Source of the DNA: Branchiostoma floridae
Taxonomy: Eukaryota; Chordata; Leptocardii; Amphioxiformes; Branchiostomatidae
DNA length: 64,000 bases
Direction of reading: 5' to 3'
Assembly: GCF_000003815.2 (NCBI RefSeq)
Contig: NC_049980.1
Span: forward strand, 30,993,045 to 31,057,044
Positions 7,801-31,800 of this stretch are shown in pieces; position 1 is the stretch's first letter, and every line of letters begins with the position of its first letter. Both the position numbers and the translations under genes were made by a program. A model generated the notes under the pieces. It was not told the DNA's origin. It worked only from the letters and a program-made list of their open reading frames with translations, and did not search any database.

Positions 7801-10800
7801 GCAAGACTTCGAAGCCCCGTGTTCACGACAACCGGCAATGTTGGGAGGACATTGGCTTTCTGGTATGTGCTATAATTTATGTTCTTTCACACTGTGATAA
7901 TTAGTCATCTCCTTGATGTTGCAGTGTTACCAGCACGACGTATGCGCGGTTATTAATTTGGTCCGTTGATTACAAGGGAGGTTTTCGGTGTACGTATACG
8001 TATCATTTGTGGGCGCGATTATGGACAACATAATTCAAGAGTCTGCGGATGGATCCTTATGATATTTGGTTCGTGGAAAGGTGTCAGCAAGGCAAATGAT
8101 TACTTAGATTAAAAAACACCTGGCGGTTTCCTGTGGTACCGCAGTACCATTTTCGCGTAGCGCGATTTAACCTATAGCCATATTTTGCGCGATGTTCATT
8201 AATCTGTGTCATCCACATGCTAGTCGCGGGAGAGAAAAAAAGAGATTTTCTTAGCAGTTACAGACTTTTATTGTCTTCGTTCATGTAGTATATGGCCCAC
8301 ACTTACGTTTTTCAGCTTAGAACGTAATTATGAGATATCTGGAGTTTTTTACCAAACAAGAATTTAATCATAAACGACATAAGGAACTGTGGTTCCTTTT
8401 TCAACTGATTTAAAATCTATTCATTACGCAATAACATTTAGATTCTAGAAGAAAATCTAAAACAGCTGTTGACATTGACTTTTTCGTCATTATCGGAAGG
8501 CAGAAATATTTCATAATTCCACAATTAAATACCTTAACCATCCTCTTAGAACTTGCATACTGCTACATGTAGGTAAGAATGAAGGCTCATCAGTTGTTTT
8601 ATCACTAACTATTTTTTAAAATACGTTTCTGTTCACTTAAAGATTTCACAAGAAAAGCCTATAGCTATACGATTAAAACCGTGAGACATGTACTCGTACT
8701 AGCGGAGATACAACATAACATTACATAACATTACATTTGTCGCCATGTATGCTCAAGCAAACATCAATGAACCGCGAAACTAACACAGTCTGTTAGTGTA
8801 AACAGTTAAAACAAAGAAAATACATTTCCTAAATTCTGGCAAAGAATACAGAAATAACGTACTCTTTGATGAAAAAATGTAACACCTGTAGATCGTGCTC
8901 TTCGTCTCCTTAAGTATTGGTATTGACCGGGTGAACTTTCACCCAAATCCCATCCTTAGCCTGTAGAGTTATGCTGTCACAGGGGACGGCCGGAGGTTTG
9001 GTCTCGTCCAGCTCCAGCTGGAAACGCTGCAGGATCAGCGCCACCGCCACCTTCATCTCGTTCATGGCGAAGTTTTGCCCGATGCAGTTCCTGCAAACAA
9101 ATAATCACGCAGTTCTATGCATTACCTGCAGTAAAACAGTACTAGTGACTCTCTGATTTAGTACCACTTTTGTGGCCACCTTTGGTTGGTTTCTTGGATA
9201 AATTTCCCCTTTCGACCCTAGCTTTAAGAATTCTGAATGCAATTGCTAACTGCCAACTGTAATCTTTTTCTTCAAGTCCCTTGGTTTGCTATTATATGAC
9301 AAGCTTTATTGGCACGACAGAAAGTACAGTGACTTTTTTATTTTCAAATATAAGCAACAAAAAGAGTGGATATAGAATAAGAATTAAAACTCTACTAACT
9401 AAACCGTATAGGATGTTATTATAGACGGATGTGATTGTCCTTTTTTAATACATGCTGTAAATCCATTTCTTGTAACTCAACGCCTATCTAAGAGACATCT
9501 AAGATACATGGTTTAGTTCTTACCTTGGTCCTGCAGAGAATGGCAGGAAAGCGTGGGGAGATCTGTTCTCCATGTTCTCAGGTGAGAAGCGGTAAGGATC
9601 ATACACCTGGATATGGAGGGTTTAGGCAAATTAAGGCTCTCTGTGTATAATACACATACGTAACGAACATTTACCTGGGAACGCTTATCTATTTGAATGA
9701 GCATCGTGACGCTCTCTATCCGGCCGTGCAATATTAGTAACATGTGAAACTAGAGATACCTCAACGGAATGACAGCTGGTGAGTTAATAAAAAGAAATAC
9801 CGTAGGATTTGGCCAAATTTCTGTGTTCCTATGGAGTCCAAGGAAATCAGCAAAAGTTGGGCTACCTGAAGAAAGAAATGTTTACATATGACAGCCATAC
9901 GCTTAATCAATGGAAATACCAATGATAATAGTTTATTGTAAATTCTTGCCTGAGGGCTAATTGCAGGGAACATGCAAGGGAACACGCAAGCAGTGTAGAA
10001 TAGTATAGAATATGTCTAAAAGCTAACTCTCAACTGTAACTTGTTGGGTAGAACTTCTTTTCCTGAGACAATGGAAGGATCCCACCTTTTCTATAATGTA
10101 CGAAAATAAATCTCACCCTTTGGCAACGATTTTCCTTCAGGGAAGGTCATGTCCTGCTTCAAGGATCGCATAGTTCGAGGAATTGGAGGAACACAGCGCA
10201 TGCTCTCTTTGATGCACATGGTGATGAACGGTAGTTTGCCAATGTCATGCCTGTAGAGAAACATCGGTAACATCGAGAACAATGTAAGATGTAAGGGGTC
10301 CAATACTTCGTCTTTTGAGAGTGAAGTTTGAAGCAGCTGTCGTACAATCCAGTGGTACACCTTTTTGCAACAACACCTGAAGGGGGCTTTGCCCAATAAT
10401 GTATGAAAAGGAACACACATAATGCGAGAACTACAGTGATCATATCAATGACGGTGGTTGAAATAAAAACGAAGATAAACAGGTCATACAGGTTAGTAAA
10501 TGATAACTGTCAGAGGTATGATCTCACCATGTCATTTGAATCCGTCCATGAAGCGCTTCTTCCACCTCCCTCCTGCACTTGTCCTGATAGTCCTTGTTTT
10601 GGGCCAAGTGGAACAGTGTCCAGCTGATTCCACTGGCAGTGGTATGGTGGCCGCCGAACAGGAAAGTGTTGACTTCGTCTCGGATCTCGGAAACACTCAG
10701 CCCGGTACCGTCTTCATCCTTAAATAAACCGTGATGTTCTTAGTGATGAAAAAATAATAATTGTCCAAGTAGGATGAGTAATTTGAAAGGAATTAGCTGT

Positions 10801-28800: not shown

Positions 28801-31800
28801 AATATCAGCTAAAGTTTATCACTGTCACGGTAGTTCTATATACTAACTTACACGGACACACATACAGTAAAGATGATAAGAAAGCACACCAATGATGCAG
28901 TAGACAAGTCCACAAGAGAACAGTAGAGAAGCCCTACCTTTTCGCTGTTAGCTTTGAGCTGCAATGTAGCGCTTCTATGTCTAATGATGCTGATAGAAAG
29001 ACTTTGTCTCACGGGTGCAAAGGTCAGGTTGTTATCATATCAAGGGGGCAAAATACACAGCACAAGGCACCGTGGGATCTCGTTACAAGATGATCCACTT
29101 AATAATAATAATAATAATAATCATCTGGTGTATTTTGCCAGCCAGTAGGTACCCAAAGTATGAGTAATGAGGCTGTTTAACGTGGTCGAGGCACCTCCTC
29201 GAACACGGGACCCCCGTTTTACGTCCCTCCCGGAAGACGATGTCGTGGAAAACTTCGTGAGGCTACAGCAATCCGGACGTCCTTGGTTGGTCCCCCATCC
29301 AAGCACTATCCGGACCGCGCGTTGCTTAACTTCCGAGATCGAGGGATCGGGTGTACCAACGCGCCACGCGGCCGTAGCGTATTTCATTATGTAATCCATG
29401 GAAAAAGGAGCTGTTTTTATCTCAGATATCTTACGTTATGCTAACCTGTTCAACCCCCAATCTGATCAAACGCAGTTCTAGCAAATTCTATATGGCTACA
29501 TACAACCCCCCCCCCCCCAAACCGGGGCACTTGGATTGGTCCCTTTGGCTTAAAAGATTCCACTAACGATCATTCCACTTCCTCATGGGGCTTTTCGTGA
29601 AGAAAATAATTTTTTCAACTAATGCAGCATTTTTGGAAACTTAATTGATTAGTTGGAACAGCCGAGAACTGCCAAAATTTCACAAAGAAAATTCACAAAT
29701 AAACCATTGTTTAAACCCTTGTTTGCTATGTCAGTATGAGGTCTAGAGACATGCGCAAACAGTTGCGCCCGGCCATATCGCCTGAGATAAAACAATGTTG
29801 TTTAACGTCTTATTTATTCCTATTTGCTTTAGTTTTGTTGATGTCTGTTTACACTAAGCCAATGCCCATTTCAATGCGCGAGACAAGAATGATATTACTT
29901 CCAAACATGTTACATATGTAACAGACCAATTGATCAATCATGCACGTCCCTATGGCCCTCTGTCATCTTAACAGTAACAGTATAGCCCTGGCTCGTAATA
30001 AATGTTATGGTTGTGCATGAAAAACTTTGTGATTATGTACTGCATTGTTGCAGTACAAATGAAGCCAGAATTGGAGATGTCATCCCGTGACGAATCAGCA
30101 TTTCCCCACAGGTATTATAAAAACACACCGGGTGACTCTACACTGAGAGTGTACCTGGTGCTGGACGATAACGCTCCTGTGGGGCAGTATGTCTGGAGCG
30201 CTGCTGGACAGTCAGACGAGTGGAGAAGAGGCACAGTTGATGTCAACGACACTACACAGTTTAGGGTATGATCTACGGTATTATTATATAGTCATTCTCA
30301 TACATCAAACAAACACAACACCAAAGAAAACCAAGATGGCTGCTTTGTTTTCTTTATGGGCTGTTCCATGTGTGAAATAGGGGACAGGTTAGAAATAATG
30401 TTGATGTTGTTATAGACTTTACCGATTTCGTCTGTATTTGCTTTTTACTATTACTAACATTAATTATCATACTCATATAAGTATCATATCAATGCTATAT
30501 TTCTATCTGAAAGTTCCTTAGAATCGAAATTTGAAAACTTCTTTAACGGAACATTGGTAACTAATCTTTATATCATTTGCCTTAGTCTTGAGATGTTTTA
30601 AACAAATTTATCAATATTATTTTAAAAGATCTCGAGAGGTTTGGAAAATTTCTCTAGAGGCTTTGAATGTTATATTGGATATCTAGTGAAGATGAATGAA
30701 AACGCTGTTACGTATTTTCATTTTGCTACTTTTCTCACAGGTGATCTTTGAGGCTTATCAAGACGGCTTTAACCCTGCAGATATCGGGCTGGATGACATC
30801 GCATTCCTTGATCCTGGTAAGAGCATAGCAACAGCAACAACCAGATAGTTGTTTTTGTTTCTACCAGATTCTGTTTTACTTTAAACGCAGATTCATTAAT
30901 AACAACATGAAGAAATAATATTCTACTTCACCGATCGTTATAGAGGAATGGGTCTCTTCATTTCTTCATAGTAAATATGCAGTTCCTCTTTGATAACATT
31001 AAAGCTTAGATGTCTTCAAAACACAATAGATAGGTGTGTATACAGATGCGATGTGCACCAGTGTCCTGTACGTCTGTGTGGATGGTGTGTTCAGCACCAT
31101 GGACAGGCTTGAGAACGGATTTTGTTGTGCACTGATGACTGTATGATGAAAATATTGGTCGTTTCGTCGTTAAGATGACTAAACAAACGCCACTGTCATG
31201 GAGTCTTGTCTTACGCCATGTTTGTTTTCTCTCACATTGCCACGAAGATGTTGACGACTGCTTGAGCAATCCTTGCCAGAACGGCGGGTCCTGTGTGGAC
31301 ATGCTTCACGCGTACATATGCCGGTGTTTCGGCGGCTGGACCGGAATAAACTGTGACGAAAGTAGGGCGGCTTCTTCTTTCAATCTCTCCTAACTGTCAA
31401 AGCGTTAATTGTCAAACGTTTTGACGGAGATCTATTTGCATAGCATTGTACCATGCTGGTGTTATGTTCTTCCGGTTTAATCTGCGTAATATTGCGTTTA
31501 GATGAGGAGCTCTAAAACGCAGCATAAGTGATTTAAGGTGAACTGGATTAGTCTGGATTAGAGATTAGACTTTGCGGTCAAACATCTAACCTATAAGACT
31601 ATAACACCTCGGAGACAATAACATTTATACCGTGAAACCATGACTTGCAGCAAACGTACAAAATGTTATATCTTATTATGTTTGATACATGACTAATCAG
31701 CGTTGTAATCCATTACAGTCTACGGTGCTATCGACTTTGAACGCGAGCTGCAGTTCTACGGTTATCTACAGAGTACTGACGACGATTTCGACTGGACAAT

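Follow-up and report, generated by a model that had tools for sequence, protein, structure and literature searches.

Two antisense CYP4-like genes nested in an intron that splits a MAM domain of Branchiostoma floridae

In the SYN/TIMP nesting, TIMP genes lie in reverse orientation within an intron of the synapsin gene, where amphioxus has one such gene, Ciona two and sea urchin ten; the source describes this arrangement as kept across metazoan evolution, with the exception of C. elegans, and gives five exons for the nested TIMPs of mammals (PMC2825198). The LRRTM/alpha-catenin pairs of vertebrates have an opposite-strand guest in a large host intron, and the model put forward in that report is a translocation into the intron (PMC3933685). 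A survey of mammalian and Drosophila nested pairs places 220 of 296 simple pairs in human and 193 of 248 in mouse on opposite strands, and describes the guests as mostly born by duplication and as typically short and intronless (PMC8467205). Here we analyse a stretch of 64,000 nucleotides of the lancelet Branchiostoma floridae (assembly GCF_000003815.2, contig NC_049980.1, positions 30,993,045 to 31,057,044 of the forward strand), hereafter the window, in which two cytochrome P450 genes (copies A and B) lie antisense within a 22,249-bp intron of a host gene encoding MAM and EGF domains. Like most pairs in that survey, guests and host are on opposite strands; unlike the guests described there, each P450 gene has 12 coding exons. 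We consider it probable, at roughly 0.86, that this is an ordinary nested-gene locus, in which an antisense P450 pair occupies a host intron following intron gain, gene entry, tandem duplication and transposon insertion, in that order. The features that make up the nest are as follows, in coordinates of the window.

342..39217, plus strand: 3' part of the host gene, 21 exons, modelled from reading frame and splice sites
7125..7277, plus strand: first exon of the second MAM domain, MAM2 (host exon 6)
7754..7862, plus strand: 5' half of the MAM2 central exon (host exon 7), ending in phase 2 within a Trp codon
7863..30111, plus strand: GT-AG intron of 22,249 bp, with both P450 genes within it
8910..15053, minus strand: P450 copy A, modelled from ATG to stop in 12 coding exons; product of 516 amino acids
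18112..28107, minus strand: P450 copy B, modelled from ATG to stop in 12 coding exons; product of 520 amino acids
30112..30265, plus strand: 3' half of the MAM2 central exon (host exon 8), entered in phase 2
30741..30816, plus strand: last exon of MAM2 (host exon 9)

The continuity of the host gene across the P450 block is carried by the splice junction and by the MAM domain itself. As the original prediction for this stretch had noted, exon 7 stops two bases into a Trp codon and exon 8 supplies the third, TG before gtatgt being joined to G after cag to give TGG. Exon 8 is alone among the 21 host exons in being entered in phase 2, and no other exon can therefore continue exon 7 in frame. The two halves match neighbouring parts of the Pfam MAM profile (positions 1-69 with 28.2 bits and 78-153 with 44.7 bits), while the joined domain scores higher than either half, with 84.5 bits to PF00629 (cut-off 26.4) over profile positions 1-153 of 158, and can be aligned to enteropeptidase across the splice junction (2.8e-11). 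This bears out the earlier claim that exon 8 continues the same MAM domain. The claim that the frame is preserved through all 21 exons also holds, as the joined exons contain no internal stop, with GT-AG borders at 19 of the 20 introns. The other 19 host introns measure 221-4169 bp. A MAM profile built from the six MAM domains of the window gave 21 matches at E up to 0.1, all in segments with a modelled MAM exon, as expected by construction, and none in the intron proper. Nor were further P450 fragments found in the intron outside the modelled exons (E below 0.001).

Both P450 coding regions lie entirely within the host intron, and their reading frames do not overlap any host exon. Modelled exon by exon, each copy has 11 of 11 introns with GT-AG borders and a single stop, at its end, and the phases of the coding exons are identical in the two copies. 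Pfam recognizes both as p450 (7e-102 and 9e-102), and both carry the heme-binding motif FSAGPRNCIG, a likeness to CYP4. The proteins are identical at 428 of 518 residues (83%). Nonsynonymous (dN) and synonymous (dS) divergence (NG86) are 0.096 and 0.337, respectively, giving a dN/dS of about 0.28, and the changes fall mostly in third codon positions (108, versus 57 and 38 in the other two); the dN/dS values point to purifying selection. Among proteins of solved structure, the best relative of copy B is CYP4B1 (6c93/5t6q; 6e-122), the next molecule following at 3e-45, and the identity to CYP4B1 is 44% (189 of 428 aligned residues). In CYP nomenclature, membership of a family is set at more than 40% identity. 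Assignment to the CYP4 family fits both copies, where the 40% rule is applied to copy B and copy A is included through its 83% identity to B.

Several side observations concern the P450 pair. The exons of A and B are 72-94.5% alike and their introns are nearly unalignable, with a mean identity of 58% in the 10 of 11 introns compared, where 90 non-homologous pairs give 48%. Of 188 four-fold sites, 32 differ. Exon similarity is heterogeneous when all sites are considered (p = 8e-9), with p = 0.057 at four-fold sites. An intronic stretch of 83 bp adjoining P450 exon 8 is 91.6% identical between the copies, which suggests gene conversion tracts. In copy A, the beginning of exon 8 is locally duplicated in tandem together with adjoining intron sequence (10710-10881; 82.5%), which could provide a second acceptor.

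The two copies belong to a shared duplication unit, the extent of which is taken from the detected A/B similarity; this reaches into the 3' flanks. Copy B additionally contains two transposable elements, one enclosing a frame of the long interspersed nuclear element (LINE) type and one with a helix-turn-helix fragment.

8626..16803, minus strand: tandem duplication unit A, 8,178 bp
17846..29079, minus strand: tandem duplication unit B, 11,234 bp
18439..22976, strand not assigned: element in intron 11 of copy B, bounded by inverted repeats of 172 bp (86%)
19172-22057, minus strand: LINE-type frame of 961 amino acids enclosed by the intron 11 element
27293..27865, strand not assigned: short element in copy B, intron 1, with perfect inverted repeats of 38 bp and a helix-turn-helix fragment of Mos1 type
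16658..16803, minus strand: conserved upstream block of copy A with putative non-coding first exon, donor-like AAAAG/GTACTG
28938..29079, minus strand: matching upstream block of copy B with putative non-coding first exon, donor-like AAAAG/GTAGGG

The two introns of B that bear these elements are 4,835 and 967 bp long, while their counterparts in A are 433 and 445 bp. As the latter are short, the transposon insertions probably postdate the tandem duplication. Without the two duplication units the host intron would measure 2,837 bp, which is inside the range of the other introns. The P450 gene would have arrived as DNA; retroposition was considered and is ruled out by the 11 coding introns that both copies retain in the same phases.

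The similar upstream blocks lie about 1.2-1.75 kb before the ATG in A and 0.4-1.0 kb before it in B, and suggest that each copy has a putative non-coding first exon and a promoter of its own, presumably nearby. The conserved block includes TGACCTTTGCA, which we take to resemble a nuclear-receptor DR1 element. On the other side, minus-strand polyadenylation hexamers follow copy A at 8368 (ATTAAA) and 8272 (AATAAA), and copy B at 17505 and 17015 (both AATAAA). The original prediction had asked whether antisense nesting brings transcriptional interference between host and guests, which is a reasonable question. The hexamer at 8272 is about 400 bp from host exon 7. Should transcription of copy A read through beyond it, RNA antisense to host exons would be made, and this would be the most testable route of interference between guest and host. 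Upstream of copy B, the minus strand at 29260-29379 resembles 5S ribosomal RNA along the full length of the Rfam model (53.7 bits; threshold for gathering, 38), with an (AAT)n tract beside it at 29101-29121; we presume that this is a short interspersed nuclear element derived from 5S RNA.

In order to place the MAM2 intron among related domains, all six MAM domains of the window were compared, four in the host and two (MAM5 and MAM6; Pfam 113.7 and 102.3 bits) downstream of it. All six have a phase-1 intron, whose position varies by no more than 4 alignment columns, as well as one of phase 0. In addition, the central exon of three of the six is interrupted by a private intron, with a different site and phase in each.

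MAM2: phase 2, 22,249 bp
MAM5: phase 0, 562 bp
MAM6: phase 1, 373 bp

The site of the MAM2 intron is unoccupied in all five other domains, which extends to MAM5 and MAM6 what had been stated for the remaining three MAM domains of the host. The original prediction had drawn from this that either the origin or the retention of the intron was confined to the place of the P450 block. That step is weak: the MAM5 and MAM6 introns are too short for a gene, and such introns thus arise and persist without cargo. With two of the three private introns free of genes, there is no reason to link the gain or retention of the intron to the P450 genes. The gene models with their frames and strands are read from the sequence itself, as are the duplication unit common to both copies and the confinement of the intron site to one of six domains.

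From these features we infer transcription and splicing of host and guests according to the models, as well as the order of events and any mutual effects. The host pre-mRNA would be transcribed through the 22 kb and the intron spliced out, while the two P450 copies would probably form separate minus-strand transcription units with upstream regions of their own. The locus would have begun with the gain of a private phase-2 intron in the MAM2 central exon, into which a P450 gene then came by duplication at the DNA level. The guest would have been duplicated in tandem within the intron, and transposons would have entered copy B thereafter.

Other histories of the intron are possible. Since duplicated domains can lose introns, the MAM2 intron may be ancestral, with the P450 genes entering an old intron that the other MAM copies have lost. 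However, this demands loss in five other MAM domains, including MAM1, the one closest to MAM2 (41% identity), and as far as these sequences go a single gain appears simpler than five losses; we therefore hold an ancestral intron to be unlikely. Very improbable is an insertion of P450-bearing DNA into the MAM2 exon that was itself the intron gain, the insert being spliced out at once from a donor within a short target duplication. Such an origin would agree with the privacy of the site and with the repetition of GGTAT across the junction. The four-base match between the intron start and the next exon is the longest among the 47 introns compared, from which the non-GT-AG host intron was excluded, and a total of five is reached by 2 of these 47. 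At most, the repeat hints at a small duplication of the target, as a match of 4-5 bases to donor-like sequence is weak and was chosen after the fact. Furthermore, a blastn comparison of the intron ends (7863-8662 and 29081-30111) found no repeats, direct or inverted, and the two nearby private central-exon introns are short. If true, this origin would mean that splicing rescued a coding exon struck by a gene-sized insertion, which later hosted two intact genes.

A number of features weigh against a single host gene enclosing two complete guests. An in-frame ATG at 30017, inside the intron, is open into exon 8 and begins a hydrophobic stretch, and a transcript initiating there is possible. The locus might then consist of two transcription units, a 5' gene ending after exon 7 and a second starting near 30017; in agreement with this, reading on from exon 7 gives WYVL followed by a stop, and on the plus strand the intron has its first polyadenylation hexamer at 8108. 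Each product would, however, contain half a MAM domain, and the phase-2 complementarity, the proper splice sites and the adjoining profile halves would have to be accidents, which leaves two units a quite improbable arrangement. Least probable is an assembly error that put the P450 block into the host intron: frame and phase resume exactly beyond the block, and the 64-kb window contains no N, and hence the intron has no scaffold gap. Also to be set against nesting as modelled, the residual 2,837 bp of the intron exceeds 18 of the 19 other host introns, and the junction of host exons 20 and 21 is not GT-AG but would require a GC donor (GCAGCG). Finally, between the proline hinge and helix A the P450 models have fewer residues than CYP4B1 (a hand count gives about 14 fewer in B and about 16 fewer in A), and copy A is without the PGPP motif. 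A scan of intron 1 for micro-exons (open AG-to-GT/GC segments of 30-99 bases, a multiple of three; in B restricted to 26913-27292, i.e. the intron outside the inserted element) listed 8 segments for A and 14 for B, none of them convincing, the best scores being low (18 against CYP4 segments, 20 between the copies). A WxxGH-like pattern was not found on the minus strand of the whole intron. Of the two complete antisense CYP4-like genes originally proposed, the antisense nest and the intact ATG-to-stop models stand, while the word complete has to be qualified. The end of exon 1 in copy A (14835-14851) is wholly unlike its counterpart in B. Nesting of both P450 genes in one spliced host intron remains the reading that we prefer.

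The 5' end of the host gene lies beyond the window. Its domain order is MAM1-EGF-EGF-MAM2-EGF-MAM3-EGFx4-MAM4, followed by a hydrophobic stretch and a tail; Pfam recognizes four MAM and six EGF stretches, and seven EGF-like exons were counted by eye. The hydrophobic stretch is a predicted transmembrane segment, and the host is probably a type I membrane protein of the MAM/EGF kind. Within 37958-38044, host exon 20 is open into an in-frame TAG that lies just past the exon, at 38042-38044, and is a possible alternative transcript end; a secreted form ending at this TAG may exist beside a membrane form in which the exon with the hydrophobic stretch is reached via the GC donor. The second longest host intron (2956-7124) holds a broken LINE-like sequence on the minus strand (3133-6851), with endonuclease and reverse transcriptase in separate frames.

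Plus-strand exons at 47062-63296, 3' of the host, are taken as one further gene. Besides MAM5 and MAM6 it has EGF-like exons (by eye), a sushi exon and a CUB exon, each above its cut-off, and an F5/8 type C-like exon which, at 24.6 bits, falls below the cut-off of 28.2. Many similar repeats are spread across 56565-63314, and a minisatellite with nested periods of 22, 33, 55 and 77 bp lies between MAM5 exons (48794-49223). A dispersed repeat (84% identity) is found in non-coding parts of both gene regions, at 630-839 and 52983-53188.

Among the open-licence papers found, as judged by titles and the beginnings of abstracts, there is no description of this nest. Compared to the systems described above, the locus shares with SYN/TIMP the antisense position of the guests in a host intron and, as in Ciona and sea urchin, the presence of several paralogs in one intron, while the host and guest families are different. 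With LRRTM/alpha-catenin it shares an antisense guest within a large host intron; the pairs named in the abstract of that report have one guest per host intron and involve other gene families. Antisense nesting, including that of several paralogs per intron, is already known, and on this comparison the present locus is a further case and poses no challenge to current knowledge of nested genes. It is a clean one, in which the gene of a modular surface protein carries, in a private intron, two multi-exon enzyme genes on the opposite strand. As five sister MAM domains are without this intron, related genomes could date the intron gain, the gene entry and the duplication separately.

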